Position numbers and translations under genes: made by a program
Notes under the pieces: model-generated
What the model saw: only the letters and a program-made list of their open reading frames with translations
Told to the model about the DNA's origin: nothing
The model's database searches: none
Shown: one piece after another, positions 225 to 40,367 of the stretch
Numbering within the stretch: position 1 is the first letter of the stretch
How the letters are laid out: each line of letters starts with the position of its first letter
Assembly: GCA_027038275.1 (NCBI GenBank)
Contig: JALVXC010000065.1
Span: forward strand, 1 to 49,064
DNA: 49,064 bases
DNA from: Campylobacteraceae bacterium
GTDB lineage: Bacteria > Campylobacterota > Campylobacteria > Campylobacterales > Sulfurovaceae
Direction: 5' to 3'

Positions 225-478
225 CCATTGGCTTCGGGTGTGGCGAATTGAAGCTAAGTAGTGAAGAGAAAACTTAAAAAATATTTAGCTTACTTGATTA
301 CAAGCTTGTAAGAAGTGGGTATGTAGCAAACTGCGAAATACTCTCTTCTCTTGTAATCATATGAGGTCAATATTTTATAAGTTAATAAAGTATGGGTTTG
401 AAATTTTGGACGAAACAACGTGGAGGAAAAATTACAAACTCTTGCTGAATGGTTTTCTTCACTACTTAGCTGCAATGG
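225..478. other. Structured element C (solitary hairpin domain related to part of element B)
   Basis: This non-coding stretch is closed by CCATTG (225-230) with CAATGG (473-478). Inside that is a perfect 16-bp stem, AGCTAAGTAGTGAAGA (252-267) with TCTTCACTACTTAGCT (456-471). A further 10-bp stem pairs TGATTACAAG (295-304) with CTTGTAATCA (350-359), and a shorter imperfect helix lies inside it. Blocks such as AAAATATTT, GAGGTCAATATTTTA and an ACAACGTGGAG-like segment match element B at about 34646-34873, where the stems have unrelated sequence but still pair. The 71-codon frame through it on the minus strand is an artefact of the pairing. It may be a folded DNA promoter or a structured RNA; the strand is not decided. 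Confidence 0.6.
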
Positions 479-709
479 GAATGGCAAGAGAGTAAAACAA
501 TACACCCTCCCAAACCCCTCATTAATATACCATTAACCACACATTATCCAACCATTTACAAAATACTCCTATAATAACACAGTGAAAGAGATGGAAATCA
601 AATACTCCTTTTAATATTTCCAATAAAATATGCAAATTAAAAATACTCCCCCCACTTAAACCGAAACCTCCTTTTCCTTGCTCTCTTTCAAAAACTTTTA
701 AACCAAAAT
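479..709. other. Gap with no recognised feature
   Basis: AT-rich non-coding sequence between structured element C and the terminator of the 64-residue gene. A 70-codon minus-strand frame crosses it but has no ribosome-binding site and no recognisable family. Nothing else was seen. Confidence 0.4.
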
Positions 710-731: not shown

Positions 732-918
732 CAAAATCAGTAATTTCTACTTGAATTAAACACTCTCCCTTAACAACAATAAAAGAGAGCTTCATATCTA
801 AGATATTTAACATAGGAAACTTTTGAGCTACAACATCATAAAATGCTTCTTTTGAGATACGCAATAAATCAAAAGGTTCATACCCCTCAATAGTAGTTAC
901 AAAATTATTAGTAGACAT
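724..918 (-). CDS. Small hypothetical protein (64 aa), translationally coupled to DUF2958 gene
   Basis: The protein begins MSTNNFVTTIEGYEPFDLL and ends in an acidic tail. I chose the ATG at 916-918 because it overlaps the end of the DUF2958 gene by 11 nt, a normal arrangement for translational coupling. The longer upstream alternative would overlap that gene much further. There is no signal peptide, membrane segment or recognised domain. It is the last gene of a two-gene minus-strand operon ending in the hairpin at 710-731. The function is unknown. Confidence 0.6.
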   Translation of the reverse strand: MSTNNFVTTIEGYEPFDLLRISKEAFYDVVAQKFPMLNILDMKLSFIVVKGECLIQVEITDFEE

Positions 919-1258
919 TCTCAATCTCCGATACAATACCACTTTTGTCAATGACCGTATCACTTAAAAATAAATCCATCTCAAATCCACTCTCAATTAA
1001 CTCATCAATAGAAGAGTAACCCCACTCACTCAAAGTAGGGTCTGCATCATTTTGCATATATCCAAAAGCTATTCTCTCTTTACTATCATACTCCACTACA
1101 TAAAGAACCTTAGAGGAGCAAAACAACTTAACAACCACCTCTCTAATCTCTAACCCATCAGTAGCATATAGTTCTGGAGCTTCACTCAATTTTGAGTAAA
1201 TAATATTTACCTGACTCTCAACCAATAAAGGAGACTTAATATCACATATATTTTTCAC
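908..1258 (-). CDS. DUF2958-family protein (116 aa)
   Basis: The central part (about residues 26-100) matches what I know of DUF2958: a LYAT segment, a hydrophobic strand with VKLF, a VEYD block, an FGY segment, then NDADPTLSEWGYSSIDEL and a late FEMDLFLSD. DUF2958 proteins are small and common on conjugative plasmids and ICEs, and their biochemical role is not established. The start is GTG at 1256-1258, supported by AAGGA at 1266-1270 with a 7-nt spacer; no ATG lies nearby in frame. The start is only 22 nt from structured element A (1281-1699), so that element could be its promoter or leader. If the plasmid transfers as inferred from oriT, the transferred strand is the template for this gene, as in leading-region genes. 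It overlaps the next gene by 11 nt. Confidence 0.75.
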   Translation of the reverse strand: MKNICDIKSPLLVESQVNIIYSKLSEAPELYATDGLEIREVVVKLFCSSKVLYVVEYDSKERIAFGYMQNDADPTLSEWGYSSIDELIESGFEMDLFLSDTVIDKSGIVSEIENVY

Positions 1259-1280
1259 AATAAAATCCTTAAAAAGTAAA

Positions 1281-1699
1281 TTTTCTTGTTTATGAACAAT
1301 GTTTGAATCCCCTAGCCTTTTTTATTTTTAAAGCTAGAGAGATTTACTGCTCATAACAAGATTTTCTCGTCCAATCACAAAGTTCGTTATCCCTGTTCGA
1401 CAAACGTATCAATGAAAAAAAATAGTTGGTTTCAAATTAAAAACTTTTAAATTGAAAGTCACTATTAGCAGAGCAATTTTTTCTAAGATTAAGAGAGGAG
1501 ATAAGGGATAACAACTTTGGGAGTGGATGAGATAAGCCCAATATGAATAGAGAATCTCTCTAGCTGATAAAAAATAAAAAGAGATAAAAACCGTAATCAC
1601 GTTTCCTTATTGCTCTTGGCTTAGTGATTAGAACAGGAACTGCGATGTACCATGTACTCGTCTCAAAGAGATTCAAGCACGACCCAAAGGGGAAGCCCC
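1281..1699. other. Structured element A (about 420 nt, homologous to element B)
   Basis: The stretch is non-coding and aligns with 34308-34969 over its whole length, except for an inserted domain in B. Shared blocks are TTTTCTTGTTTATGA at the left edge, TTGAATCCCC, GATTTTCTCGTCCAATCAC, GTTATCCC, GAGTGGATGAGA, GATTAGAACA, GTACCATGTACTCG and a right-edge GGGGAAGCCCC hairpin (1689-1699). Pairings kept with changed sequence include CTAGC with GCTAG near 1311-1337, GTTATCCC (1386-1393) with GGGATAAC (1505-1512), and a TTTCAA/TTGAAA hairpin near 1432-1460. Wobble-pair evidence is split between the strands: some stems favour plus, others minus. It sits 22 nt from the start of the minus-strand DUF2958 gene and 20 nt before a ParB-type site. 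Confidence 0.65.
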
Positions 1700-1719
1700 A
1701 AAATAGAACTAACAACATT

Positions 1720-7620: not shown

Positions 7621-8568
7621 ATGAGTAAAACAACTGATTTAACAAAAAGAAACTTTACACGGCAATCTCATGTAATAGTAAATGCTCGTTATGCACTAAC
7701 TCGTGCAGAGATAGATATTGTACTCACACTACTTACTGCAATTAAACAAGAAGATGAAGATTTTAAAGATTATCAATTTACTATAAAAGAGTTGGAACAA
7801 AAAACAAACCGTAAATGGAATTCTAAACAGCTTAAAGATACAATAAAAAGTCTTATGGGTAAACCTTTAGATATCCCTAAAGAAAATGGCAAAGGTTGGA
7901 CCATAGTTAATTGGTTTAGTTATTTTGATTATTCAGATGGAGGTATTATTACCTGTCGTTTTGATAAAGTATTAAAACCCTACTTGTTGCAGATAAAAGG
8001 TACACGTATTATTAGTGATTTTAGACATCTACTCCCTATGCAATCTAGCTACTCAAAAAGAATGTACCTACTCCTTAAAGAGTATGATAAAATAGGTAGC
8101 AGAAAGTTTAATATAGAAGAGCTACAAGATATTTTAAAAGTTCCAAATAGCCATAAGACTAGATATAATAAATTTAAGCAAGATGTACTACAACGTTCAG
8201 AAAAAGATATTAATAAATTTACAGATTTAGAGGTAAATTTTGTAGAAAAAAAACAGGGAAGAAAGATTCATGAAGTTGTCTTTTTTATACGTAAGAATAA
8301 TAATAAACTAAAAGATTTTATATCAAATATACGAGAACTTTATCCTAATAAAGTTTTATTACATACAAAAGATGGGAGACCAATTAAATGTAGCAAGAAG
8401 GGTCTACTATACTATGCAGATAGTAGCAATCTAACACTAGATAAAAAGACTGCACAAAAAACATGGGAATGGCTACATGAAAATAGAGCTAATTTAGAGT
8501 GCTATGAAAGTGTAATTGATGAAGAAAGACTTAAAAGAGTGGGAATAGACTCCTCAAAATTGACTTAA
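7621..8568 (+). CDS. rep: Rep_3-family plasmid replication initiator
   Basis: The protein has the Rep_3 (RepB/RepE) layout of two winged-helix domains: SHVIVNARYALTRAEIDIVLTLLTAI near the start, FTIKELEQKTNRKW, a central SSYSKRMYLLLKEYDKIG helix and FNIEELQDILKVP typical of the second domain, then a C-terminal basic tail. Initiators of this family bind iterons as monomers and an inverted half-site at their own promoter as dimers. Both kinds of site are upstream. I chose ATG at 7621 with AAAGG at 7607-7611; a GTG three codons earlier (7612) is the alternative and would be nearly leaderless if the TATAAT at 7599-7604 is the -10. It stands alone, followed by 390 bp without genes. Confidence 0.93.
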   Translation: MSKTTDLTKRNFTRQSHVIVNARYALTRAEIDIVLTLLTAIKQEDEDFKDYQFTIKELEQKTNRKWNSKQLKDTIKSLMGKPLDIPKENGKGWTIVNWFSYFDYSDGGIITCRFDKVLKPYLLQIKGTRIISDFRHLLPMQSSYSKRMYLLLKEYDKIGSRKFNIEELQDILKVPNSHKTRYNKFKQDVLQRSEKDINKFTDLEVNFVEKKQGRKIHEVVFFIRKNNNKLKDFISNIRELYPNKVLLHTKDGRPIKCSKKGLLYYADSSNLTLDKKTAQKTWEWLHENRANLECYESVIDEERLKRVGIDSSKLT

Positions 8569-8955
8569 AATAGAACTCTTAATTTTATAATGAGTGTTGA
8601 TATTCGATTTAATAACTCTAGCGTTATTAAGTCATAAACTATCCTAATAAAAGGCTATACTATTTTTTATTTAAAGTTCTATATTAAATAAAAAATAAAT
8701 CAAAATATAGATATAAAATCGACACCCCCCTACTCTATTCCAACCAAAGAAAATATAACTTAATAATAATCTCCCTCATTAAAATCAAAAAAATAGCATA
8801 AAATAATCAAAAAATATTATAGTAAACACAAAGACAATAAATGATGAAAGCCTAATATCAAGGGATATAGAAGAAAAATATATTTTTTATTGTTAAAAGT
8901 TATTATTAAATATTATTAGTGTAAAATTGCAAATAAAAAAAGTGAGACTAAAAAT
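8569..8955. other. Intergenic region between rep and the trb operon
   Basis: The stretch is AT-rich and contains one full 22-bp palindrome (8609-8630) about 40 bp after rep. It must also carry the trb operon promoter, but several AT-rich -10-like hexamers occur and none stands out. A short C-run (about 8724-8731) is present. No gene was found. Confidence 0.5.
8609..8630 (+). promoter_or_regulatory. 22-bp dispersed palindrome, copy 3
   Basis: A full match between rep and trbB. It could regulate the trb operon from about 330 bp upstream or serve as a partition site near the origin. Confidence 0.75.
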
Positions 8956-9941: not shown

Positions 9942-9963
9942 TTAATAACTCTAGCGTTATTAA
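9942..9963 (+). promoter_or_regulatory. 22-bp dispersed palindrome, copy 4
   Basis: A full match in the 56-bp gap between trbB and trbC, 20 bp before the trbC start codon. It could tune expression of the pilin genes independently of trbB. Confidence 0.75.
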
Positions 9964-9983
9964 TTTCAAAAAAAGGACATTTT

Positions 9984-10612: not shown

Positions 10613-13071
10613 TGTTATCATTAAAAGATTACAGAACAACAATAATGGGCTTACCAGACCTATTAAACTATGGTTTTATTATAGATGAGGGTATCTACCT
10701 TAATAAAGATGGTTCTATTTCAGCAGGATTTTACTATAGAAGCCCTGATATTAATTCAGCAACACCACAAGAGAGAAATCATATTGCATCAAAGATGAAT
10801 GCTCTACTATCTAAATTTCAAAGTGGTTGGGTTATTCATGTAGATGCAATAAGAAAACCCATTAGTGACTATCCATTAAAACAAGAAAACTACTTTAACA
10901 ATCCCATTAGTAAACTTATAGACAACGAAAGAAGAGCATTTTTTCAAACTAAAGGAACTCACTATGAGTCAATTTTTTCTATAGTTTTAACCTATTTACC
11001 ACCCAATAAAGCAAAAGGTAAAATAGCTGACATTATGTTTGAAGATAGTACAGGTGAATATAAAACTGATTTCTCTGAAAAGATGTTAACAACCTTTAAA
11101 GCTAAACTCAACGAATTTCAATTGTTAGCTTCAAATATTGTAAAAATTCATCGTATGATGCCACATAAATATGAGGATGAATACCATCAAATACATATAA
11201 GAGATGACTTTTTAGAATTTTTGAACTTTGCATTAACAGGAGATTTTCACCCTATAAACATACCACCATTAGGTGCATATCTTGATACATATATTGGAAC
11301 TTATCAACTTTGGGGAGGAGTTACTCCTAAATTAGAAGATAAATATATTGGGCTTGTTGCTATTGATGGATTTCCACAAGAGAGTGTTCCTAATATGCTA
11401 GAACAACTTAGCAATTTAGAGACTTCTTACCGATGGAATACACGTTTTATATTTATGGACCAACATGAAGCATTAAAAGATTTGGAAAAATATAGACGTA
11501 AGTGGTTACAAAAAGTTAAAGGGTGGAAAGAGCAAATTTTTGGACTACCTATAACAAAAATAGATGAACACGCAAATATGATGGTTCAAGATATAGATAG
11601 TGCAATTGCAGAGACAAACTCTGGGTTATTAGCTTATGGGTATTACACAGGAAATATTATTTTAATGGAGGAGAGTAGGGAAGTCTTAGAATTTAACCTA
11701 AAAGAGGTAGTGCGTATCATTAATAATCTTGGATTTAATGCTCGTATAGAAAATATTAATGCTATGGAAGCATGGATTGGAACACTTCCATCTCACTCAA
11801 TCCAAAATATAAGAAGACCTCTTATAAGTACTTATAATTTAACCCATTTTATACCTCTATCAAGTGTTTGGGCAGGGGATAAATATAATCCATCGAACAA
11901 GTTTCTACCTAAATCACCAGCTCTACTTTATACTGTAACACAAGGTTCTACACCATTTAGATTAAATCTTCATATAGACGATATAGGACATACACTTATT
12001 TTTGGTCCAACAGGCTCTGGAAAATCAACACTTTTAGCTCTACTAGCAAGTCAAGCACAAAAGTATAAAAATGCACAAATATTTGCATTTGATAAAGGAA
12101 ACTCGCTCTATCCACTTACTGTTGCTACAGGAGGTATTCATTATGATATTGGAGGAAAAGATGAAACAACTCTCTCTTTTGCTCCTCTTGCTGAAATCAA
12201 CACAGACTATGAGCAATCTTGGGCTGAAACATGGATAGAATCACTCCTTGTGTTACAGGGGATAGAGATAACTCCAGAAAATAGAAAAAGTATTCATTAT
12301 GCAATGACAATTCACCGAAAATCTGAATCAAAATCATTAACAGACTTTGTATCAAATATTCAAGATGATAGATTATCTAATGCTTTAGAACACTATACTA
12401 TTTCAGGACCAATGGGTTATCTACTAGATGCAGAGGAAGATAAGTTATCACTTAGTAACTTTTCATGCTTTGAAGTAGAAGAGTTAATGAATTTAGGAGA
12501 TAAAAATCTAATTCCTGTTCTACTCTATCTTTTTCATAAGATTGAAAACAATCTTGATGGTCGTCCATCATTTCTTTTCCTGGATGAAGCGTGGATTATG
12601 CTTGGACACAAAGTTTTTAAAGAGAAGATTAGAGAGTGGTTAAAAGTATTAAGAAAAGCAAACTGTGCAGTCATCTTAGCTACACAATCACTATCAGATG
12701 CAGCCCATTCTGGTATATTAGATGTACTACAAGAGTCTTGCCCTACAAAAATATTCTTACCAAATCCAAACGCATACAATAAAGGTTCTGAACATCAATT
12801 AGGACCTTATGACTACTATAAACAGTTTGGACTTAATGATACACAAATTAGGATTATTGTTAATGCTACACCTAAAAAAGAGTACTACTATCAAAGTCCT
12901 ATGGGAACTAGACTATTTAACCTTGCATTAGGTCCTATAGCTCTATCTTTTGTAGGAGTAAGTGGGAAAGATGATATAAAAAAAATAAAGCAACTCTATA
13001 AAAAATATGGCAAAAGTTGGGTTACTTATTGGCTTCATTATAGGGGTGTTAAGTATAAACATCTACTTTAA
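10612..13071 (+). CDS. trbE: TrbE/VirB4 secretion ATPase
   Basis: At 819 aa it is a full-length VirB4/TrbE. The N-terminal half matches the CagE/TrbE region. The C-terminal ATPase has GPTGSGKST (residues 465-473), FAFDKGNSLYPL, FLFLDEAWIML (Walker B, about 653-663) and LATQSLSD. The protein energises assembly of the secretion channel and pilus at the inner membrane. It starts with GTG at 10612-10614, overlapping the trbD stop, with AGGG upstream. The stop codon lies inside a 22-bp palindrome. Confidence 0.96.
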   Translation: MLSLKDYRTTIMGLPDLLNYGFIIDEGIYLNKDGSISAGFYYRSPDINSATPQERNHIASKMNALLSKFQSGWVIHVDAIRKPISDYPLKQENYFNNPISKLIDNERRAFFQTKGTHYESIFSIVLTYLPPNKAKGKIADIMFEDSTGEYKTDFSEKMLTTFKAKLNEFQLLASNIVKIHRMMPHKYEDEYHQIHIRDDFLEFLNFALTGDFHPINIPPLGAYLDTYIGTYQLWGGVTPKLEDKYIGLVAIDGFPQESVPNMLEQLSNLETSYRWNTRFIFMDQHEALKDLEKYRRKWLQKVKGWKEQIFGLPITKIDEHANMMVQDIDSAIAETNSGLLAYGYYTGNIILMEESREVLEFNLKEVVRIINNLGFNARIENINAMEAWIGTLPSHSIQNIRRPLISTYNLTHFIPLSSVWAGDKYNPSNKFLPKSPALLYTVTQGSTPFRLNLHIDDIGHTLIFGPTGSGKSTLLALLASQAQKYKNAQIFAFDKGNSLYPLTVATGGIHYDIGGKDETTLSFAPLAEINTDYEQSWAETWIESLLVLQGIEITPENRKSIHYAMTIHRKSESKSLTDFVSNIQDDRLSNALEHYTISGPMGYLLDAEEDKLSLSNFSCFEVEELMNLGDKNLIPVLLYLFHKIENNLDGRPSFLFLDEAWIMLGHKVFKEKIREWLKVLRKANCAVILATQSLSDAAHSGILDVLQESCPTKIFLPNPNAYNKGSEHQLGPYDYYKQFGLNDTQIRIIVNATPKKEYYYQSPMGTRLFNLALGPIALSFVGVSGKDDIKKIKQLYKKYGKSWVTYWLHYRGVKYKHLL

Positions 13072-13089
13072 TAACGCTAGAGTTATTAA
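13068..13089 (-). promoter_or_regulatory. 22-bp dispersed palindrome, copy 5
   Basis: Full match in the reversed core orientation, overlapping the trbE stop codon and ending 20 bp before trbJ. Confidence 0.75.
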
Positions 13090-13109
13090 AATCAAAAAAA
13101 AGGAAAAGC

Positions 13110-13886
13110 ATGAAAAGAACACTAATAAAACTATTACTTATTATCTCTTTCTCCCAACAAGCTAATTCAGGGAGTGTAGGAAATATTTATACAGGAATTT
13201 CATCAGAAGTAACACAACTAGCACAGTTTGCAGCAGATGGAGTTGCTTATGGACTAGACTATGCAGAACAAGTCGCACAATATGCAAAGTTAGTAGAGAC
13301 ATATAATAATCAATTCCAAAGTTATAAACTAATGCTCCAGAACATTAGTCAATTATCTCCTAGACAATGGAATGAGTTTCGTCAAAGTGTTATTGGTTTA
13401 AAACATGCTCTTGAGTTTGGAGATGGAGTTAGCTATACCATGGCAAACTACAATCAACAGTTTAGTAAATTGTTTAAAGGGTATAACCACTATCTTAGTA
13501 AAGCTCAAAATGGGACTATTGATTTTACAACAATATATAAACAGTTCAATACAAGTACACGAGATACAATAAATGGTGCATTAAAATCACTCAAATTACA
13601 AGCGTCTGATATGATGTCAGATGAAGCAACAATGCAATATCTACAACAAAAAAGTCTATCAGCTGCAGGACAGAAATCTGCTATACAGGCTGCTTCACAA
13701 ATTGCTCTTCATCAAACCCACCAACTAAAAGAGTTACGAAATACTATTATGACTCAAATCAATTTACAGAGTGAATTTATGCTAACTCAAAATGAAAAAA
13801 AGGCATTTCAAGAGGCAATTAGTAAAGCAAAAACAACAAAAGGTATTAAACCAATAATTGGTGATGAGACACCAATAGGATATTAA
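13110..13886 (+). CDS. trbJ: TrbJ/VirB5-like minor pilin or pilus-tip protein
   Basis: The 258-residue secreted protein has a signal peptide (MKRTLIKLLLIISFSQQANS) and a largely helical mature part with repeated Q-rich helices (AQYAKLVETYNNQFQSYKLMLQNI), as expected for TrbJ/VirB5. TrbJ lies between TrbE and TrbK in Ti-type operons, exactly as here. The start is ATG with AAAGGA upstream. The protein ends in KPIIGDETPIGY, and the last 12 residues recur at the C-terminus of the next protein; the encoding 36-nt DNA is nearly identical. That is not a known feature of TrbJ. Confidence 0.85.
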   Translation: MKRTLIKLLLIISFSQQANSGSVGNIYTGISSEVTQLAQFAADGVAYGLDYAEQVAQYAKLVETYNNQFQSYKLMLQNISQLSPRQWNEFRQSVIGLKHALEFGDGVSYTMANYNQQFSKLFKGYNHYLSKAQNGTIDFTTIYKQFNTSTRDTINGALKSLKLQASDMMSDEATMQYLQQKSLSAAGQKSAIQAASQIALHQTHQLKELRNTIMTQINLQSEFMLTQNEKKAFQEAISKAKTTKGIKPIIGDETPIGY

Positions 13887-17203: not shown

Positions 17204-17909
17204 AAAAAATCTATTAATAACTCTAGCGTTATTAATGATAAATGGATGCAGTGAACTACTAAATAACAAAGAGCATAAACACTTTATTTCACAAGTTAGT
17301 TTAAAACATTTCAAACTTGATAAAACAATTACACAAGATATGATACATTTCATAAAAAACTACTATCTTATCCCCAAAACTACTTTTTATTTTCAACTTG
17401 GTTCATCAGTCTATGCTCATGATGCTATTATTGAAGAGGGACTACGTAGTGTAGGATATGGAGTTAGCTATATAAGAAAGAGGGGGACTATCCCATTTGC
17501 TTATAAAATAGATTTTATTGATAACAATATTATGAGAACAACTTATAATATTGGTTCAGCTACACTAAGTCGCCTCTATAGCATAGAGGGGAATCAAGCT
17601 ACTCCAATATCTGCTTTTACTGCTAGGGGTTTTAAAAAACGTATTTACCAAAACTATCCCAACAGCTCATATAGTCTAAAAAAAGCCATTGTCTCTATTC
17701 CTGTTCTAAATGTACGAAACTCTCCATCATTAAAGGGAAAAATCATAGGAAAATTTTATAAAGATTCACTAATCTATGTAGAAGAGCCTATCATCAATTC
17801 AGGTAAAAAGTGGAGTAGAGTAATCCTAACAAATTTACATAACAAAGATATATCATCAAACATAGAAGATAGATATGTTGCTACACGATATATCCAATAC
17901 ATCAAATAG
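17190..17909 (+). CDS. trbH: TrbH/VirB7-position lipoprotein with C-terminal SH3-like domain
   Basis: The signal peptide MKIIKKNLLITLALLMINGC ends at a lipobox cysteine (ING-C). I use ATG at 17190, with GGGGAG six nt upstream, rather than the ATG two codons earlier that touches the same ribosome-binding site. The middle (GSSVYAHDAIIEEGLRSVGYGV) recalls TrbH of IncP. The last 70 residues (SIPVLNVRNSPSLKGKIIGKF, then KKWSRVILT and YVATRYIQYI) look like a bacterial SH3 domain, which often binds peptidoglycan. It should anchor the TrbG-TrbI core in the outer membrane. The 22-bp palindrome (17214-17235) is encoded inside the signal peptide. Confidence 0.8.
   Translation: MKIIKKNLLITLALLMINGCSELLNNKEHKHFISQVSLKHFKLDKTITQDMIHFIKNYYLIPKTTFYFQLGSSVYAHDAIIEEGLRSVGYGVSYIRKRGTIPFAYKIDFIDNNIMRTTYNIGSATLSRLYSIEGNQATPISAFTARGFKKRIYQNYPNSSYSLKKAIVSIPVLNVRNSPSLKGKIIGKFYKDSLIYVEEPIINSGKKWSRVILTNLHNKDISSNIEDRYVATRYIQYIK
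17214..17235 (+). promoter_or_regulatory. 22-bp dispersed palindrome, copy 6, inside the trbH signal-peptide codons
   Basis: An exact match that also encodes part of the hydrophobic core (LLITLALL) of the trbH signal peptide. Exact retention of all 22 bases within a coding stretch argues for selection on the DNA site. Confidence 0.75.
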
Positions 17910-23993: not shown

Positions 23994-24642
23994 AAATCTT
24001 TTATATACAAGAGAAGAACCCACAAAAGATGCTAAACTTATTATTATCTATTGTGAGGGCAAAAAGAGAGAGAAAGATTACTTTAACTACTTTTCAGAGA
24101 TAAGCTCCAAGATAAGATTAGAAGTAGAAGCACCATCTCAACACGATAATAACTCTCCTAGTGGATTATTTCAAAAAGTTATTAGTCACACTATCAAATC
24201 CAAAGAGAATCCAAATCCAAAATATAATATTGATGATGAGATTTGGATAGTTTTTGATACAGATAAGTGGGGAGAACAGATTAATACAGTAAGAGAAGAG
24301 TCTAAAGAGTATAGTTGGAATATAGCTCAAAGTAATCCATGCTTTGAAGTTTGGTTGTTTTATCATCTCTTTGAATTTGAAGAGTTTGAAGGAATGGAGA
24401 ATCCAAATAGATGGAAAACATTTCTAAATAAAAAAATATCAGGTGGCTTTAGCAGTAAAAAACACCCAATTTTTGTTAAAACAGCAATAGAAAATGCAAA
24501 AAAAGTGTTTAATGAAAGTATAACTATTGGCTCAACAGAAGTATATAAGTTAGCAGAGAGTTTTTATCCTTACGTGTCTGATAAGATTGAAGAGGCACTA
24601 AAAAATCATATTAATAACTCTAGCGTTATTAAAGAAGAGTAA
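23971..24642 (+). CDS. rloB: RloB-like Toprim-fold protein
   Basis: After a short N-terminus the protein shows LIIIYCEGKKREKDYFNYF (Toprim-like acidic CEGK, about residues 23-41), DEIWIVFDTDKW (acidic DxD strand, about 87-98) and NPCFEVWLFYHL, the arrangement of RloB proteins. These are believed to be nuclease-type partners of RloA ATPases; the substrate is not known. ATG 23971 overlaps rloA by 23 nt; a second ATG at 23977 is equally possible. The last codons (HINNSSVIKEE) are written over an exact copy of the 22-bp plasmid palindrome, so the module is embedded in the backbone control system rather than freshly inserted. Confidence 0.85.
   Translation: MIMRLKNRNLLYTREEPTKDAKLIIIYCEGKKREKDYFNYFSEISSKIRLEVEAPSQHDNNSPSGLFQKVISHTIKSKENPNPKYNIDDEIWIVFDTDKWGEQINTVREESKEYSWNIAQSNPCFEVWLFYHLFEFEEFEGMENPNRWKTFLNKKISGGFSSKKHPIFVKTAIENAKKVFNESITIGSTEVYKLAESFYPYVSDKIEEALKNHINNSSVIKEE
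24611..24632 (+). promoter_or_regulatory. 22-bp dispersed palindrome, copy 8, inside the rloB C-terminus
   Basis: An exact 22-bp match that encodes INNSSVI near the C-terminal end of rloB, ending 10 nt before the end of the stop codon. Confidence 0.75.
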
Positions 24643-26704: not shown

Positions 26705-26878
26705 TATTTTTACTCTTTCTGTATCTACTTAATATAATCTAAAAAATAAATTATACATTTAAATAATAAATTGTAAAAGTACAAGAACTAAATATTTACT
26801 ATTTGCTTATCAACTTACTATCATTCCTTTCTTTTTTTTGAAATAATAGTGCTTCTCTTATTTATATAGCTTTTCATT

Positions 26879-26900
26879 TTAATAACTCTAGCGTTATTAA
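26879..26900 (+). promoter_or_regulatory. 22-bp dispersed palindrome, copy 9
   Basis: A full match 11 bp beyond the traB-like stop codon, the last copy seen going rightwards. None was noticed between 27 and 49 kb. Confidence 0.75.
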
Positions 26901-32049: not shown

Positions 32050-32212
32050 GTTTTGGTTCTCTTTTTTTATTCTTTCTGTTTTTTGTTTCTTTTAAAAAAC
32101 TATTTTTTATAAAGAACTTCTTTTTCTTTTATCTCTTTTTTTAATAGCTCTTTTTTTCAAAAAGCTTCTTTTTTCTGTTGAGCCATCTTTTGGCGAATAA
32201 GGTTCAGGACTA

Positions 32213-32262
32213 GAATGTGTCGTAAAAATTTATTTTTTGTGTCACGTTCTCCCATCCTGCCC
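32213..32262 (+). other. oriT: Origin of transfer (oriT) with RP4-type nic
   Basis: CCATCCTGCCC at 32252-32262 matches the RP4 nick core ATCCTG/C, placing the cut between 32259 and 32260 on the plus strand. Ten bp to its left ends an imperfect inverted repeat, GAATGTGTC (32213-32221) and GTCACGTTC (32241-32249), the expected TraJ-binding repeat. TraJ and TraI genes lie to the left and traK to the right, the same geometry as RP4. By that model the relaxase stays on the 5' C and the strand enters reading rightwards, so traK and 32.4-35 kb form the leading region. The rest of 31966-32422 is T-rich and otherwise featureless. Confidence 0.85.
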
Positions 32263-32422
32263 TTTTTTCTTTTATTTTTTCTTTACAATAGTACTCTATT
32301 TTTATTTAAATTTACTATTTTTTAGTTTTTTTTGTTAAAATATCAAAAATAGAAAACTATTGGAAACTTTTGTAAACTATCGAATAGATTTTGGGGTTTA
32401 CTCCAAAAAGAGAGGTGATTTT

Positions 32423-32842: not shown

Positions 32843-33667
32843 TTAGAATAGTCTTCCTGTTGCGAATATCTCTAGTTCTTTGTTAGTGTAGAGTAGTTTA
32901 TTCTCTATGGTATCGCAGGGTAGGGTGATTTTTTTTGGTTGGGGGTGTTGTTCTATTTGCAAATCATTAGTGGCTCTATTTTGTTTCTCGTTTTTCTCTT
33001 CTTCTTTTTTTATTTGGTTATGGTTTTGGGTTTGTCTATTTGAGGCGTTCATAATATATTTTGGGGTGTACCATATTGAGAATTTTTCATTGGATAGGGC
33101 GTTACCGTGGATTACCTCTGCTGATATTCCCAATAGGGATAGTTGGATAAAGCTCATGTGTACGCAGAGTATATCTACATCTATTGCTTGTACTTCCATT
33201 ATATTTTGGTATTCAAATCCATACTCTCGTTTTATTATATCTGCTCTTGCTATTATCATTACTCCAGAGCCACAGCATGGCTCTACTATTGACTCTTTGT
33301 TTTTGATTGGCTCTCCTAGAATGGAAGCCATAAAGTTTGATATGTGGTATGGGGTGAAGAATTGACCTTTATATTTTGAGCCTAGATTTAGGTTCATAAA
33401 GCATTCACCTAGAAAGTCACCCATTTTATCCTCTAAGCCCATTGCTAGGTAGCTTAGGAGTTTTGGGAATATTTCGGCTATATTTTTTTTATATTTTGAG
33501 ATGGTTTGCAGGTACTCTTTTTCAAGCTCTTCACTTCTTAGGAAGGGTTGGTATAGGCTTATAGCTGTCATTTTACAGAAGTCTGTGAAGAGTTCCCATG
33601 CTTGGAACTCATAGCAGTTTGACTCTATTAGTTTTATAAACTCATTTTGTGCTTTTTTATAGTTCAT
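32843..33667 (-). CDS. N6-adenine methyltransferase-like protein, catalytic motif not visible
   Basis: The 274-residue protein has an N-terminal helical part, GQFFTPYHISNFMASIL (about 100-116) and VEPCCGSGVMIIA (SAM-binding motif I, about 127-139), then AIDVDILCVHMSFIQLSLLGI, as in HsdM-type enzymes. The expected NPPY/NPPF motif is absent: the strand after HGNALS reads FSIWYTPKYIM. Plasmid and ICE relatives show the same change, so methylation activity is doubtful. The C-terminal third is polar and Gln/Asn-rich. It is the third gene of a minus-strand operon below structured element B and would enter a recipient early, where DNA modification or antirestriction genes are common. Confidence 0.8.
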   Translation of the reverse strand: MNYKKAQNEFIKLIESNCYEFQAWELFTDFCKMTAISLYQPFLRSEELEKEYLQTISKYKKNIAEIFPKLLSYLAMGLEDKMGDFLGECFMNLNLGSKYKGQFFTPYHISNFMASILGEPIKNKESIVEPCCGSGVMIIARADIIKREYGFEYQNIMEVQAIDVDILCVHMSFIQLSLLGISAEVIHGNALSNEKFSIWYTPKYIMNASNRQTQNHNQIKKEEEKNEKQNRATNDLQIEQHPQPKKITLPCDTIENKLLYTNKELEIFATGRLF

Positions 33668-33690
33668 TTTTTTATACCTTTTCTCTTTTT

Positions 33691-33882
33691 TTAGTAGATT
33701 ATTTCGATAGAGTCATCATCAAGGGTATCTGTTTGCAAGAAGCGTTTTATCTCCTCTTTTGCCTCATCTATATCACTACATTTTAGGTAGAGGACATCTT
33801 CGCTTCCATCTATCACTACAAAGAAGCTTTTTTTACTCTTTTTGTGGTTATTGTTTTGTGGGTTTAGTACGGTTTGGCTCAT
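33691..33882 (-). CDS. Small acidic hypothetical protein (63 aa)
   Basis: The protein has a polar N-terminus (MSQTVLNPQNNNHKKSKK) and then a compact block, SFFVVIDGSEDVLYLKCSDIDEAKEEIKRFL, of beta-beta-alpha appearance. GGAGAAG lies before the ATG. It sits nine nt after the previous gene and 23 nt before the methylase-like gene, so the three form one operon. No family is recognised. Confidence 0.6.
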   Translation of the reverse strand: MSQTVLNPQNNNHKKSKKSFFVVIDGSEDVLYLKCSDIDEAKEEIKRFLQTDTLDDDSIEIIY

Positions 33883-33891
33883 GCTCTTCTC

Positions 33892-34251
33892 CTACATCTC
33901 AAATAGGTTTAATTGGATAGGTTTAGTTGATACTTTTTCTAAATCTATCTTTTCACCAATTTTTTTAAAGAGGTATCTTTTTATCTCTCCATAAGAGGCA
34001 ACACCTTTAGCACTATTTACAAAGATTGAGTGGTAGCCTGTAGAGGTAAATGCTTCAAATCCTCTACTTAGGGCATGAAAAGCAAAGTGAGATAGGTTTG
34101 TGCTTTTAGAGTAGAGGGGTTGGTAGATTACGGCAAAGCTTAGGTGATTTATCTCAAAGAAGAGGGTATAGATTAGCTCTTTACCTCTTTTATTGATTGA
34201 CCCATTTAGTAGGCTCTTTTTTTCATATACTTTATAGGGTATGCTACACAT
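33892..34251 (-). CDS. Hypothetical protein (119 aa), first gene of the leading-region operon
   Basis: The start is ATG at 34249-34251, with AAAGGA about ten nt upstream. A longer frame to 34356 would run into structured element B and lacks a ribosome-binding site. The protein has no membrane segment; it contains LIYTLFFEINHLSFAVIYQPLYSKS and FHALSRGFEAFTSTGYHSIFVN, and ends PIQLNLFEM. No known family is recognised. It starts 57 nt from the edge of structured element B, comparable to the DUF2958 gene beside element A, suggesting both are driven or controlled by the elements. Confidence 0.65.
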   Translation of the reverse strand: MCSIPYKVYEKKSLLNGSINKRGKELIYTLFFEINHLSFAVIYQPLYSKSTNLSHFAFHALSRGFEAFTSTGYHSIFVNSAKGVASYGEIKRYLFKKIGEKIDLEKVSTKPIQLNLFEM

Positions 34252-34307
34252 AATTTTTAAATCCTTTCTATTCTTTTTTATAGAGATACAAACTCTTTTA
34301 TGATTGA

Positions 34308-34969
34308 TTTTCTTGTTTATGAGCGTTTTGAATCCCCTCCTTTTTTTATTTTCCAAGGTGGAGAGGGTTTTAGCTCATATTCAAGATTTTCTCGTCCAAT
34401 CACTCTTCGTTATCCCTATTGACGAATGAGGAAGAGATAAAAAATACTTAGTTTGGAATAAAACACTTTTTATTCCAAAGTCAGTATTAACGTAGTGGTT
34501 TTAGCTAGAGTGTAGTGAGGAGTATGGGGTAACTAAGTGTGAGTGGATGAGAAGAGCCAGAGTAACAAAACGCTCTTTACCTTGAGAAGAAAATAAAAAG
34601 ATATGAAAGAATCGGAACGATAGTGTAGATTTTCCGATTGAATTGAATAAGTGATTAAAAAGGAACTTAGAAAATATTTGGCTCCTCTTTAGCTATGACC
34701 TTTTATAAGTGTCTGTGCAACGAACAGCGAAACAGTTGCTTATAAAAATTGGGGCATAGATGAAGAGGAGGTCAATATTTTATCAGTAGTGGAATGGGGG
34801 TTTCATTTTTTTAGGAACAGCGTGGAGAAAAAAAGGAAAGTCTTGTTCTACGGTCTCTTTTTAATGGCTTGTTCAATAGCTTAGGGATTAGAACACGAAG
34901 TGCGACGTACCATGTACTCGCCTTGGAACGGAGTGGAAAGGTTCAAGCCCGACCCGTAGGGGAAGCCCC
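34308..34969. other. Structured element B (about 660 nt), leading-region candidate ssDNA promoter or large structured RNA
   Basis: It aligns with element A at both ends and contains an additional domain related to element C. Stems visible: ATGAGC (34318-34323) with GCTCAT near 34373; CCCCTCC with GGAGAGGG; GTTATCCC (34409-34416) with GGGGTAAC (34526-34533); TTTGGAATAAAA with a matching arm near 34474-34485; AATCGGAA with TTCCGATT near 34610-34640; AATAAGTGATTAAAAAG (34646-34662) with 34857-34873; CTCCTCTTTAGCTATG (34682-34697) with 34755-34770; and the terminal GGGG-AAG-CCCC hairpin (34959-34969). Several differ in sequence from A or C while keeping pairing. No coding frame is credible. It lies about 2 kb into the predicted leading region, upstream of minus-strand genes. 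Confidence 0.68.
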
Positions 34970-35036
34970 CCTATATGATACTTAAATGAGTATATAAACT
35001 TCACAGAATGAAACATTATGTTAAGCAAACTCAAAT

Positions 35037-35936
35037 TCATAACTTTTCAAGGATATTATCAAACTTAACAAAATATTCTTTATAATCCTTGACATTAACC
35101 CCACGCCTTTCAATATATTTTGTATTAAATCTTTGTACAGCATAAAATAATGAAGCAAACAACATATACTCTTTCATATGTTTTATTTCAATTTTACTTG
35201 AATTAGCATTACTATAAGCATTGAGTAAAGTAGTTAAGTAGTCAATGTTTAGGGTACTATCATTATTGAAACACCAACTATTAGCAACAACACTTAAATC
35301 AAAAATTGAATCACCAGTACATGACTCAATAAAATCAAAAACACCTGTTAATTTATCATTCACAAACTTAGCATTATCAGGAAATAAATCTCCATGAATA
35401 ACACAATTATTATTTACCTTCAAATTTTGAATCAACTTATATCTTTTCATAAAATTATCTTTAGTAGATTTATCAAAAGATGAAATTTGAATATTATTCA
35501 GCATATTTTTTAATTGACTTTGTGTGTATAAATTAGGGTTTATCGAGTTCAATCCAGTTGTCTGTTTATGAAATTTACCCAAAAAATCTCCTATTTGATT
35601 AATCTGTTTTAATGAAGGATAACAAATAGACTCTCCTTCAAGATAACTAAATAAGCCAATTGGCTTATCATTAAAAAACTCTATTTGTTCTTTCGATAAT
35701 AAAAATTTTGGAATAGGTAAATTCTCTAATACATTAAGCAGTTCTATCTCATTTCTCAAAATTTCTTCATCTGCAAATTCATAAATTTTAAATATATATT
35801 TTTTACTTTCATCCTCTCCTATATATGTAGTATCAGAAATTCCATCTATAGTTTGTTTTAAACTTAGAAAAGTAAAATTATACTTTTTAAGTAATTTGTT
35901 AACCTGTTCTATATCAATTAATGTTCTTACACCCAT
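35037..35936 (-). CDS. Homoserine kinase (ThrB type II)-like APH-fold kinase
   Basis: The 299-residue APH-fold kinase has NCVIHGDLFPDNAKFVNDKLTGVFDFIESCTGDSIFDLSVVANSWCF, with catalytic HGD at 181-183, Asn188 and metal-binding Asp201. This block is close to the homoserine kinase II family (VIHADLFPDN..., GLIDFYFACTD, AWCF), which makes O-phosphohomoserine for threonine. The N-terminus (IDGISDTTYIGE) also fits. A biosynthetic kinase is odd on a plasmid, and here the gene directly follows (9 nt) the TIR-STAND receptor in an operon, with GAGGATAAG before the ATG. It could be a recruited paralogue acting in immunity, a resistance-type kinase, or a hitch-hiking metabolic gene. Confidence 0.75.
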   Translation of the reverse strand: MGVRTLIDIEQVNKLLKKYNFTFLSLKQTIDGISDTTYIGEDESKKYIFKIYEFADEEILRNEIELLNVLENLPIPKFLLSKEQIEFFNDKPIGLFSYLEGESICYPSLKQINQIGDFLGKFHKQTTGLNSINPNLYTQSQLKNMLNNIQISSFDKSTKDNFMKRYKLIQNLKVNNNCVIHGDLFPDNAKFVNDKLTGVFDFIESCTGDSIFDLSVVANSWCFNNDSTLNIDYLTTLLNAYSNANSSKIEIKHMKEYMLFASLFYAVQRFNTKYIERRGVNVKDYKEYFVKFDNILEKL

Positions 35937-35945
35937 TTCTTATCC

Positions 35946-38435
35946 TCAAATTAATAAATCAATATTTTTAATACATATCCAATAATTTTTTTTATTTATC
36001 TTAAATGTATTTAATATATGCTCAGGGGAATCAAAATTATCTAAAATATAGCTACCAATACTATATTGATTACTATCTACAATATTTCTAGCTTCATAAA
36101 ATAATTCTTGATTATTAAAAAGTAAGCTTTTATTATAGAGAATTGCTGCTTTCGCATAATATTTTTGATATTTATCTGCTGTATATAATGCTATTTCAAA
36201 AAGTCTCTTCGCATTATCTATATTTCCCCTAGAAACTTCCATTATGGCTTGATTATTAAAATAATAACATTTCACTTCCATATTTATGAAATTTACTCTC
36301 TCTTCAATCTCTTCATTTTCTACAGATACTTTATGATAAACCATATAATTACTATGAATAACTTCAATCATACTTTCATCAAAGATTGACTGCTCATTTC
36401 TTAATACCTTTTCATATATGGGTGCTAAGATATTTTTTGCTTTTTTATAATCTCCTTTAGAGAAATAATAAATAGAAAGAGTATTACTCACTATGTAAAT
36501 TTTCACCTGATTAGGATAACCTTGGTATATTTCTATAGAACTATTTAAATACTGTTCTGCCTTTTCAAAGTTTTTTAAATCATCCACATAAACTCTACCT
36601 ATTGTATAGTAAAAATAAGCTGTTTGCATCTCATTAAAATCATTATTTTCCAGATACTTATTAATTACTTCTATAGCCTGATTCCATTTTGAATCACCTT
36701 TACTCATAGATATATAATTTAAAATATCATCAAATTCTGCATAATTTTCATTTATTAAAAATTCAATTATTTCAAACGAAACTTCCCTACTATTAAAATA
36801 GTAGAAATTTTTATACAACTCTTGAATGAAAATATGATGAGTTGTATTGTATTTAGAAAATATCCAATTTAATATTTGTTCTATTCCCTCTTCATCATCC
36901 ACAAAGTAATCTTCACTACATTGTTCTTCATCGATAAGCCAATCATAAAGTGTTTTATGAAAAAACTCTACTTTCTCATTATTTATATAAATTAATGAAC
37001 CTATAGAATCTTTTACTCTCTTCATCTTTTTTTTATTCCAACCCAATATCTCTCTTAAATATTTTAAAGGTAAAGAGGTCCTAGTTGCAACCATGAGTTG
37101 AAAAACTTTTTCTTGATTCTCTTCATACTCTTTAATATCTGGGAATTGTCTTAGAAAATACTGTTCATAAACCCCACTTAACTCATTTGGAAAAGTATCA
37201 ATCTCTTCAACAGATACACTACCATTCTTGATTGCAGAAAGTACCTCATTAATATAAAGCATATTATTTTGACTTTTCTTCACAAGCACTCTCAGCATAT
37301 TACTTTCAATATCCCCTAACTCTTTAGTAATTATTTTTTCTATATCTTTACTATTTGCATCCGTATCTCTTGTATCAAGTACCATAGGAGAAAACTTTGA
37401 TAATGCTATTTTTAAATTAGGTTCAGGTCTACTGACAATAAGTAGTCTCAACCATTTAGGTAGTTTTTCAAACTCATTAGCTATTAAATGGATAATTCCA
37501 AATTTTTCATCTTCAATCTCATCTAAACCATCAATTATATAAATATGATTATTTGGGGGAACTTCAATTTTATTCATAGGTTCAAGAATTATTTTTTGAA
37601 AAAAATCTTTAAGATTCTTAGAATACTTTTGATATTCATCATTACTTATTTTTTCAATTTCTCTTTTATAATTTGGTAATTGTGTTGACATATGATATGC
37701 AAATGTTTTTATAAGTTCTAGTGGACTTCTTCTTAAGACACTATCATATTGACAGAAAAAAACACCTGCAATATTTGGTAATATATGAATAGCATTCGCA
37801 ACTATAGCTGTCTTTCCATACCCTGCTTTAGCTGTAATCCATAATACTGATGAAGCTTTAGAATCGTTTAACCAAGTTAAAATTTTACTATATATCCATT
37901 CTCTTCCTATAAATTTTTTAGTTTGTTTTACAATATCCAAATCAAAGTTTTGAGGTTCTAATAACTTAACTAAAGAATGATTTGAACTCGTTTCAATTAA
38001 CTTATTATTTTCCTCTAAAATAGCTATCAACTTTTGTAAATAAATTTGATATAACTCCTCATTAAACTCATCAGCATCTTTATCCCAAATATTTATCATA
38101 TCTATCCATTGTAAACGACAAATTGATAATGGAGGGGTAACCATTTCTAACATAACAGGAATAATTGGCTTATTTTCTAAAATTGCATAAGAAATTTCAT
38201 TAAGACAAAATCCATTAGGTCTTCTAACAGCATGTTCTGTCATGAAAAATACAACTTCATCATTTGATGATAAAGCATCTTCTAACATATGCTCCCAATC
38301 AGATTTTATTCTTATATTCTCTGTATCTAACCAAACTTGAAAACCTTTGCTTTCTAAATCATCTTTAATTCGCATAATAAAATCAACATACTTTTGAGGT
38401 TTTCTTCCATATGATATAAAAATTTTTTTCTTCAT
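35946..38435 (-). CDS. TIR-STAND NTPase-TPR protein (bacterial NLR-like immune receptor)
   Basis: The TIR domain (residues 1-140) begins KIFISYGRKPQKYVDF and has LSSNDEVVFFMTEH and CLNEISYAI, with Glu80 at the NADase position. A NACHT/STAND NTPase follows: GREWIYSKILTWL, WITAKAGYGKTAIVANA (P-loop about 200-215), HIYIIDGLDEIEDE (Walker B near residue 315) and LLIVSRPEPNL (sensor). A winged-helix-like segment (LPLKYLREILGW) and a TPR-type repeat region (about 590-830) complete it. Such proteins detect a phage component through the repeats and then use TIR to destroy NAD+ or make a signal. The start is ATG 38433-38435 with AGGAG. It is followed by the homoserine-kinase-like gene. Confidence 0.9.
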   Translation of the reverse strand: MKKKIFISYGRKPQKYVDFIMRIKDDLESKGFQVWLDTENIRIKSDWEHMLEDALSSNDEVVFFMTEHAVRRPNGFCLNEISYAILENKPIIPVMLEMVTPPLSICRLQWIDMINIWDKDADEFNEELYQIYLQKLIAILEENNKLIETSSNHSLVKLLEPQNFDLDIVKQTKKFIGREWIYSKILTWLNDSKASSVLWITAKAGYGKTAIVANAIHILPNIAGVFFCQYDSVLRRSPLELIKTFAYHMSTQLPNYKREIEKISNDEYQKYSKNLKDFFQKIILEPMNKIEVPPNNHIYIIDGLDEIEDEKFGIIHLIANEFEKLPKWLRLLIVSRPEPNLKIALSKFSPMVLDTRDTDANSKDIEKIITKELGDIESNMLRVLVKKSQNNMLYINEVLSAIKNGSVSVEEIDTFPNELSGVYEQYFLRQFPDIKEYEENQEKVFQLMVATRTSLPLKYLREILGWNKKKMKRVKDSIGSLIYINNEKVEFFHKTLYDWLIDEEQCSEDYFVDDEEGIEQILNWIFSKYNTTHHIFIQELYKNFYYFNSREVSFEIIEFLINENYAEFDDILNYISMSKGDSKWNQAIEVINKYLENNDFNEMQTAYFYYTIGRVYVDDLKNFEKAEQYLNSSIEIYQGYPNQVKIYIVSNTLSIYYFSKGDYKKAKNILAPIYEKVLRNEQSIFDESMIEVIHSNYMVYHKVSVENEEIEERVNFINMEVKCYYFNNQAIMEVSRGNIDNAKRLFEIALYTADKYQKYYAKAAILYNKSLLFNNQELFYEARNIVDSNQYSIGSYILDNFDSPEHILNTFKINKKNYWICIKNIDLLI

Positions 38436-38485
38436 TTCTAAAACTCCTAATTAGATTTTTTTAAGTGGTCTTGACAATGGGGTAC

Positions 38486-38515
38486 ATTATACATCTCTAT
38501 GAGAATAGCTAATAA
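38486..38515 (-). promoter_or_regulatory. Likely promoter of the TIR-STAND operon
   Basis: On the minus strand TTATTA (38510-38515) and TATAAT (38486-38491) are separated by 18 bp, about 50 bp upstream of the ATG, in the gap after the RyR-domain gene. Confidence 0.55.
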
Positions 38516-38540
38516 ACGCTTTATAGTTTCTCTCTTTCAT

Positions 38541-40367
38541 CTACCCCTCCACAATCTCAAACCCACCCCGAGCCAAATATTCAGGGATATAATAGACCGA
38601 ATCCATGTCATACTTATAGGTTTTTTTAATAGTATCATTATCAAAATTCTCTAAAGGCAGTAAACAATAATGCTCTTTAGCATCTTTATTCTTTTGACTA
38701 CTATAATCCCAACCATTTAGATATTGGAAAGCACACCAACGATTGTGTTCTGACCTTGCTACTTTGTCAAAAAGTGTCTCAAATGAAGTTGGAAAATCAT
38801 CAACCTTATAGTTTTTAAATCTTGCTTCTATTGTGTTAATATCTTCTAGTTTACTATTAAATCGCTCTCTATTTAGCTTTAAAAGCTCTTCTAGTCTTTT
38901 TTCTGCTTTTACTCTTTTGAGACCAAAAGCCAAAAGTTTAATATCCATATGTATCGCTTGGGTTTTGTTAGTATCTTGTTCATGTGGCGTAATATCTAAC
39001 CAATGTTCATTTAATTTTTTTTGAACAACATCTTTCTCTCCCTGATAATCATTATGAATCAACTTAGCTATCAAATCGAGCTTTTCATCAATCAAAATCT
39101 CTTTAGTCGAAGTCGTTCTAATATTTCCAAAGGAGTAAAAGTTCTTAAAAGCTTGATTATCTTTGTCTATCTCTTCACCTAATCCTAAATTGTGTTCTAA
39201 TGCAAAAAGAACTTTGGTATTAAACCTATTATGACCAATATCTTTGATATAGGTGGTATCTTGCAGATTGATTGCAATATCAAGATTTTTCTCCTCATTA
39301 GTTGTGGCAATTAGAACATTAGTCAAATTATCACTGTGCCAAATAGGGTCTTCATAAAACTCCAAAGTCTCACTATCAATATCTTTAGCACTGATAGTTA
39401 GATGAGGAATCTTGTCTATCTTAGGAAAGAGTTTTCTGATTCTATCTCGAAATTTTGTAGAGTTTTCACCTATAAAATGTAGATTTAGCCTATTTTGATT
39501 GGGAAGTGTAGAGAGAAATGAGATATGATAAACAAGTTCAACAGCCAAATCAGAATCACCAACTAAGATTATATTAAAGTCTTCATCCGTCTTAATAATA
39601 TTGGTCATATTTCCTAAAATAGTATGTTCTAAAAAGAGTTTTTTTACCATATTTTCATATAGAGAGTAGGTTACAATATTTACATGCTTATCTTTCTCTT
39701 TTCCAATTACATCTTGCTTAAAAAGCACATTCAAATCTCGATTTTGAATACAGACATGAACCGTTTGATTTTTATCTTCACTATTTTCAATTTTACTCAT
39801 AAGAAACTTACCTAAAGCAATGTTTTTTCTATCATTTCCTGTAGAGATAATACACCTCTCCATCTTATCTAAATCAAGACTTTCAATAGCACCTTTAGTA
39901 TTGTACTCACTTATCGTAGCAAAATCTTTCTCTTGAAAATACTCTAAATAGGTGTTGTTTCTATCTTTTTCTATAATAATTGTAGATTCTTTGTCCTGTT
40001 CATTTTTTAAGAAACTAACATTCTGTTCACTCAATCCTACTATCAAGGTATAGCTATCTCTCTGTATAGCCTTTATATGCCACTTATTAAAATATTTTGA
40101 GAAAAACATAATAAAAAAACCAAATGAAAAAGTTGCAATACCTAAAAATCTAGCAATATCTAAAAGCCAATAAGTATCATCATTCCACTCTGCTACAAAA
40201 AGTCCTAAAGTATTATTGATACTACCTAAAAATGAAGAAGTACCAACATTAAGGAAACCAATTAGACCAAAAAAAATGGTTGCAGATATTAGATATTTTA
40301 GTATCTTTTCTCTGTTCTTTTTTAAATTATATGGTTGGATTTTTTTGTAACTTAGTAGGCTTATCAT
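38541..40367 (-). CDS. Membrane TrkA-N-like protein with C-terminal RyR domain
   Basis: Two or more N-terminal membrane segments (about residues 24-47 and 66-90) are followed by two Rossmann-like regions, YTLIVGLSEQNVSFLKN (about 106) and FNIILVGDSDLAVELVYH (about 263), resembling the regulatory nucleotide-binding part of K+ transport proteins. The last 75 residues (SEHNRWCAFQYLNGWDY, then CLLPLENF and YIPEYLARGGFEIV) fit the bacterial RyR domain, thought to sense nucleotides. Proteins with this combination appear in predicted conflict systems. It lacks a P-loop or nuclease. The start is ATG with AAGGGA. It reads toward the TIR-STAND operon, which has its own promoter, so it may or may not be part of the same system. 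Confidence 0.78.
   Translation of the reverse strand: MISLLSYKKIQPYNLKKNREKILKYLISATIFFGLIGFLNVGTSSFLGSINNTLGLFVAEWNDDTYWLLDIARFLGIATFSFGFFIMFFSKYFNKWHIKAIQRDSYTLIVGLSEQNVSFLKNEQDKESTIIIEKDRNNTYLEYFQEKDFATISEYNTKGAIESLDLDKMERCIISTGNDRKNIALGKFLMSKIENSEDKNQTVHVCIQNRDLNVLFKQDVIGKEKDKHVNIVTYSLYENMVKKLFLEHTILGNMTNIIKTDEDFNIILVGDSDLAVELVYHISFLSTLPNQNRLNLHFIGENSTKFRDRIRKLFPKIDKIPHLTISAKDIDSETLEFYEDPIWHSDNLTNVLIATTNEEKNLDIAINLQDTTYIKDIGHNRFNTKVLFALEHNLGLGEEIDKDNQAFKNFYSFGNIRTTSTKEILIDEKLDLIAKLIHNDYQGEKDVVQKKLNEHWLDITPHEQDTNKTQAIHMDIKLLAFGLKRVKAEKRLEELLKLNRERFNSKLEDINTIEARFKNYKVDDFPTSFETLFDKVARSEHNRWCAFQYLNGWDYSSQKNKDAKEHYCLLPLENFDNDTIKKTYKYDMDSVYYIPEYLARGGFEIVEG

Follow-up and report, generated by a model that had tools for sequence, protein, structure and literature searches.

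A candidate single-strand promoter on a Sulfurovum-type conjugative plasmid and the 3' domain that it has in common with Frpo1 and Frpo2 of the F plasmid

Frpo1 and Frpo2 of the F plasmid are single-strand promoters, the former characterised in vitro (PMC9849209; PMC7736820). Both are required in vivo for the early expression of leading genes (PMC9849209), and Frpo serves as a promoter and also as a source of primers (PMC7736820, PMC9849209). Single-strand promoters set which plasmid genes, including anti-restriction and anti-CRISPR genes, act first in a new host; outside the Enterobacteriaceae, they have so far been found only by loose resemblance. Here we analyse an element of this probable kind in a plasmid contig from a Campylobacterota genome (188 contigs, 2.54 Mb in all). 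Both ends of the contig are open, and its genes include those for NikA and a MOBP relaxase, for Rep3 and ParAB and for a VirD4-type coupling protein; the stretch analysed, 49,064 nt long, is referred to as the window.

The element, denoted B, spans 34306-34970 (665 nt) and, according to the open reading frame list, contains no coding sequence. Folded as DNA, its plus strand reached -115.8 kcal/mol (z -14.0); folded as RNA, the plus strand reached -224.7 kcal/mol (z -7.9) and the minus strand -159.9 kcal/mol (z -5.1), none of the 20 shuffles being as stable in any of the three cases. An earlier note on this DNA had described a non-coding folded element at 34308-34969. The open reading frame list and the z-scores on both strands bear this out, and the limits are best redrawn as above, around an element that is modular and has relatives in the same window. 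Its anatomy was derived from homologues in two plasmid contigs (L015, 92% identity; L016, 86%) and from the copies in the window, and comprises three main modules, hairpin 1, hairpin 2 and a 3' domain of 92 nt (Table 1).

Table 1. Features of the window discussed in the text, with coordinates counted from its first letter
Feature	Coordinates	Strand	Basis or remark
Copy C, hairpin 2 only	about 246..480	+	~135 nt from the minus-strand start codon at 111
116-aa gene facing copy A	908..1258	-	ORF; in L017, too, a gene faces the A copy
Copy A, hairpin 1 type and 3' domain (1618-1699), without hairpin 2	1280..1700	+	
RP4-type oriT core, ATCCTG^C	32191..32270	+	Sequence; same core in L015 (4417) and L016 (1670)
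N6 DNA methylase-like gene, last of three putative early genes	32843..33667	-	Pfam N6_Mtase, 1.9e-13
63-aa gene, putative early gene	33691..33882	-	ORF; homologue in L015 (5808-5996)
119-aa gene, first to face B	33892..34251	-	ORF
B, conserved unpaired 5' strand, TTTTCTTGTTTATGA...GAATCCCC	34306..34338	+	Near-invariant in A and B copies of three plasmids
B, hairpin 1, long and imperfect, with inner hairpin	34342..34600	+	Folds with RNA and DNA parameters; conserved
B, small hairpin separating the two large hairpins	34608..34633	+	Fold and alignment
B, hairpin 2, a module also found alone (copy C) and in other contigs	34642..34877	+	Compensatory changes in 18/52 pairs
B, 3' domain, Flavo-1-like, common to F Frpo1/Frpo2	34878..34969	+	Model R2 and family-wide covariation
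Palindrome TAATAACGCTAGAGTTATTA	1719-1742, 5323-5347, 8601-8630, 9942-9964, 13067-13092		
Palindrome TAATAACGCTAGAGTTATTA, further sites	17213-17236, 22501, 24610-24633, 26875-26900		

Rfam searches of the window and of B returned no family at either gathering or permissive levels, and there was no match of B to GOLLD, ROOL, OLE or group I and group II introns at any level. No match to B was found by blastn in PLSDB or in phage sequences; two Enterococcus matches to a 21-mer of hairpin 1 were judged to be due to chance. The best -35/-10 pair in the stems of B, with 9 of 12 matches, did not exceed the level of shuffles; the scan has no power, as it finds none in F Frpo either. Promoters of Campylobacterota seldom have a -35 box. 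A scan of B for terminator-like sites gave a result at chance level. Among known repeat classes, integron attC was rejected because the GTTRRRY/RYYYAAC pair is absent from the 3' domain (by eye), and IS200/605 ends, REP and MITE were rejected given the lack of a transposase and the conserved position.

An RP4-type oriT lies to the left of B, with the nick region GCGAATAAGGTTCAGGA...CCCATCCTG^CCC (core 32254-32260; predicted nick ~32259/32260). The distance from the nick to B is 2,046 nt, with B on the right side, and the core is conserved in two relatives, in agreement with the nick site some 2 kb away that had been noted previously. The NikA-like and MOBP relaxase genes adjoin oriT on the minus strand, on the side away from B. 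In RP4, the relaxase remains on the 5' C; by the RP4 rules, the plus strand rightwards of the nick is predicted to be the first to enter the recipient, that is, plus would be the transferred strand, with its polarity taken from RP4 biology.

To the right of oriT, one plus-strand ORF is followed by minus-strand genes pointing to oriT, in the order methylase, 63-aa and 119-aa gene. These are the three genes that the earlier note had placed next to B, and an N6_Mtase domain was found in the one called methylase-like. The predicted transferred plus strand is the template of all three (32843-34251). The 119-aa protein has no match in Pfam or NCBIfam, and its AlphaFold model (mean pLDDT 64) is too weak for a fold search; homologues are encoded in five plasmid contigs (35-66% identity). 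Homologues of the methylase occur in L015, L016, L047 and L048, the last two of which also encode a 119-aa homologue. The gene order with the element ahead is kept in L015 and, for at least the methylase and the first gene, in L016. In L047, an ssb gene lies between two Flavo-1-like domains. The same contig contains, at 11005-11790, a second folded element of 0.7 kb with a 3' domain, directly ahead of the start of a candidate TrwC/MobF relaxase gene (by eye). To the right of B, the window encodes an APH-like kinase, a TIR-NACHT-TPR protein (829 aa) and a 608-aa RyR-domain protein (35037-40367), probably defence or accessory genes. Elsewhere in the window, a palindrome of 22-24 bp recurs between genes, in the manner of plasmid-wide repressor operators or parS sites (Table 1).

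Two partial copies of the element, A and C, are present in the window (Table 1). Copy A lies 21 nt from the start of the 116-aa gene, and in copy C no 3' domain was detected by the covariance model. All three copies have one orientation, and each is near a minus-strand start codon. Relatives with the element are MAGs under the labels Sulfurovum and Campylobacteraceae. The contig L019 (C48) has hairpin 2 and the 3' domain between two co-oriented nuclease genes; L018, L049 and L050 have a lone 3' domain without a fold or a facing gene. L019 belongs to the window's own genome, and the nucleases on either side of its element (193-2172) are NucA-like paralogues; a third nuclease gene precedes the lone 3' domain in L018.

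In the three-member alignment of B, two-sided changes occur in 13 of 236 predicted pairs. For hairpin 2, a set of six sequences with a mean column identity of 65% was available, in which 96.1% of the cells pair. Two-sided changes affect 18 pairs and 35 cells, compared to 9.0 and 13.4 in shuffles, and none of 500 shuffles reached the observed values; when the partners were slid, only 4-7 pairs and 5-15 cells remained two-sided. The stems of hairpin 2 thus covary among homologues, the absence of which the earlier note had named as evidence against its reading. In 53 copies of the 3' domain, there are 65 compensatory cells versus 9.0 in shuffles.

The earlier note had also taken wobble pairs split between the strands as evidence of folding DNA, and this argument did not survive calibration. 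Hairpin pairs of B include 47 G-T and 24 A-C combinations, a ratio of 1.96; with 1.31 for RNase P, 1.18 for tmRNA and 1.47 for the known ssDNA promoter Frpo, wobble in hairpins does not discriminate between RNA and DNA. For RNA selected on a given strand, G-U is expected well over A-C; among the 677 paired cells of the 53 copies of the 3' domain, G-T occurs 3 times and A-C 10 times. DNA is therefore favoured over RNA by the 3' domain, by the geometry and by the link to Frpo, and not by hairpin wobble.

The 3' domain was traced with two covariance models. Model R1, built from seven 3' tails of this plasmid group, was run against 397 genomes of the phylum. One match (G460) lies beside genes for secretin-like and Rep-like proteins, in an inovirus-like block (by eye); another (G311) reaches the Rfam gathering score of RF01705 (Flavo-1); a third (G148) was set aside as apparently lying inside a coding sequence. 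A pattern derived from the R1 matches led to 28 viral contigs, and several of the nine that were checked are Flavo-1 by Rfam. Model R2 was built from 18 viral copies and contains no Sulfurovum or enterobacterial plasmid sequence. It matches B with 41.0 bits (E 2.8e-8; after only a short calibration, R2 E-values are rough) and copy A similarly (E about 2e-8), along with L015, L016, L018, L049, L050 and, weakly, L017. Its specificity is supported by the fact that only 6 of the 397 phylum genomes match at E 0.01 or better. The chain from R1 through the pattern to R2 has a common selection history, but the pattern played no part in the choice of F, R100, Massilia and Bacteroides.

RF01705 itself does not match the domains of B, A or F even at permissive E-values. 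Reciprocally, R1 finds gathering-level Flavo-1 in G311 and R2 finds B; Flavo-1 and the 3' domain of B are related but divergent. An Rfam hit to a known RNA class, which the earlier note would have counted against a DNA element, was obtained only in part: no family scores B, and the family to which its 3' domain is related itself has the look of a DNA element.

In F (L087), R2 matches 8092-8173 (E 1.1e-8) and 13480-13561 and, in R100 (L089), 7889-7970, with no further match across F, R100 and ColIb (133 kb together). The Frpo places of F are exactly two in number, and the R2 sites are located directly 3' of both folds, on the T-strand; this 3' domain of Frpo1 and Frpo2 is a feature found here, outside the published definition of Frpo. 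That a model of the 3' domain picks only the 3' ends of Frpo1 and Frpo2 in F, in agreement with the geometry, the copies and the synteny, strengthens the Frpo/ssi reading that the earlier note had offered.

By R2 or blastn, the 3' domain was also found in plasmids of Bacteroides/Phocaeicola/Parabacteroides, Massilia and Klebsiella. In all 20 plasmid loci laid out (a non-random sample with several close relatives, for which no p-value is given), a gene on the opposite strand starts 274-1129 nt 5' of the domain, and the interval between domain and gene folds (z -3.5 to -14.9; -8.7 for the 5' flank of the domain in B), the other flank usually being near 0. The facing genes are ssb (F, Massilia), ArdC (p5482, pBF9343), JAB-domain genes (two others) and, for B, the 119-aa type. 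Massilia has four copies 576-607 nt from start codons, one of which is that of ssb.

Among viral contigs and lone copies, likewise a non-random sample, roughly half have z below -3 on their 5' side and only two on their 3' side, and a divergent gene is the nearest 5' neighbour in some two thirds. In ssDNA phages, the domain is on the virion strand of Gokushovirus KT264808 and of L077 and opposite to the virion strand in L055, the latter two being microviruses by their capsid and pilot proteins (by eye). In several tailed-phage contigs (L070, L075, L067, L064, L056, L061 and similar ones), the domain lies directly behind the gene for the terminase large subunit, on the opposite strand (by eye). 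These tailed-phage copies are not explained by conjugation. L061 and L078, both filed as viral, encode a DUF932-like protein (by eye) near the domain; such proteins are typical of the leading regions of F and R100, and the two contigs could stem from plasmids or phage-plasmids. Rather than an sRNA, Flavo-1 probably represents a DNA domain of single-strand promoter or initiation elements. We lean, with some reserve, towards the broader view that, instead of being an RNA, it forms the 3' module in a class of ssDNA promoters or initiators that is widespread. It would mark the start sites of transcription or replication on ssDNA in conjugative plasmids, and in some ssDNA phages and tailed phages, from Campylobacterota, Bacteroidota and Pseudomonadota.

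Taken together, the fold and its covariation, the oriT geometry, synteny, the copies, the R2 matches and the 20 plasmid loci support the assignment of B to the Frpo/ssi class. In our view, B is likely to act as a promoter/initiation element on single strands, within the leading region of this Sulfurovum-type conjugative plasmid. Against this count the lack of a convincing -35/-10 pair, hairpins that do not resemble F Frpo in sequence, the ColIb-P9 promoters without the 3' domain, the 3' domains that stand alone or, in L019, between nuclease genes, and the copies in tailed-phage contigs. Under the proposed mechanism, the plus strand would enter the recipient 5' end first, with B arriving ~2 kb behind the nick. 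In single-stranded B, pairing of the arms would create two long hairpins and, with them, duplex DNA; RNA polymerase, helped by SSB as for Frpo, could start on the hairpin duplex and run leftwards with plus as the template, producing an mRNA that covers the 119-aa, 63-aa and methylase establishment genes. The same RNA could prime the complementary strand, and once this complement is made, the hairpins would be gone and the promoter off. The 3' domain would form a module of its own, to which an ssDNA factor of the host or the plasmid binds, its role most likely being in strand initiation (priming, SSB or primosome); strand initiation or the loading of an ssDNA protein is the simplest guess.

A narrower function, in which B is only a site of complementary-strand initiation (ssi/sso type) that recruits primase or a primosome after transfer and is no promoter for the leading genes, seems unlikely to us. 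It would suit the virion-strand location of the domain in KT264808 and L077, its place beside a Rep-like gene in the inovirus-like prophage and the lack of clear promoter boxes in B. Against it stand the domain of opposite strand in L055, the consistent placement 0.3-0.7 kb from the starts of genes templated by the folded strand and the dual role of F Frpo, which has the same 3' domain and is both promoter and primer source. We give still less credence to a large ornate non-coding RNA transcribed from the plus strand, with Flavo-1 as one of its domains, an alternative that the earlier note had kept and that is weakened by the link of the 3' domain to Frpo. The plus strand does fold better than the minus strand as RNA, G-T exceeds A-C in the hairpin pairs of B, and RF01705 is filed as an sRNA. 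The opposite excess of A-C in the 3' domain, with its compensatory cells, is nevertheless unlike an RNA selected on that strand, B has neither a terminator-like site nor an Rfam family, and the same domain ends a proven ssDNA promoter. Moreover, the published transcriptome of Flavobacterium psychrophilum shows Flavo-1 in sense or antisense orientation to transcripts and, in many cases, outside any transcript (PMC9723704).

A further reading, in which MITE- or REP-like mobile palindromes landed between genes and gave rise to B and its relatives, is highly improbable, even though the modules are shuffled, with hairpin 2 and the 3' domain found apart, the edges are sharp and there are several copies per plasmid. 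Orientation to start codons is conserved, synteny holds in three plasmids (86-92% identity), substitutions preserve the pairing across long divergence, no transposase was seen, and a copy is present in only 6 of 397 genomes of the phylum.

Compared to the known single-strand promoters, B as a candidate brings in a new phylum and new hairpins. In the literature searched, mainly open-access journal papers, no description of a link between Frpo and Flavo-1 was found. If the reading of Flavo-1 is true, single-strand promoters are not confined to enterobacteria and become accessible to covariance searches, the common 3' domain being a sequence-structure handle for them in at least three phyla. Early genes adjoining elements with the 3' domain would then be candidate anti-defence genes, and an orphan Rfam family would gain a testable function.

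Among the described systems, GOLLD, ROOL, OLE and the group I and II introns resemble B only in size and ornate fold. Flavo-1 (RF01705) shares with B the core TTAGGGATT...AAGCCCGACC and a closing stem with compensatory changes; B differs in scoring under the Rfam thresholds, in its other inner hairpins and in that the domain concludes, on the 3' side, an element of 665 nt. ssi2 and ssi3 of ColIb-P9 are, as proposed for B, single-strand promoters ahead of genes, in their case anti-restriction genes and ssb, but have a different conserved 3' sequence: the match to F ends exactly where the Flavo-1-like domain starts. The 3' domain is absent from the ColIb-P9 promoters by covariance search and is therefore not required for such promoters; with the ColIb-P9 promoter sequence running up to the domain start and then differing, the domain is, on sequence comparison, a separable module. 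The ColIb-P9 promoters (L143 7740-7952 and 14770-14985, minus strand) end in a conserved CATCGGACCGTAGCG.CAGCCCGAAACCGCG..., which may be another type of 3' module.

The closest counterparts of B are Frpo1 and Frpo2 of F and the corresponding element of R100. The hairpins of F Frpo have no sequence similarity to those of B, which has two large hairpins and is 665 nt long versus about 550 in F, lacks a recognisable -35/-10 and belongs to another phylum and to a plasmid with an RP4-type MOBP relaxase instead of MOBF. Like B, the F and R100 elements are non-coding, are located in the leading region, form long imperfect hairpins on the T-strand, face with their 5' end genes templated by that strand and occur in more than one copy per plasmid; methylase and ssb genes are found in the leading region, and the 3' domain is common to all of them by covariance model.
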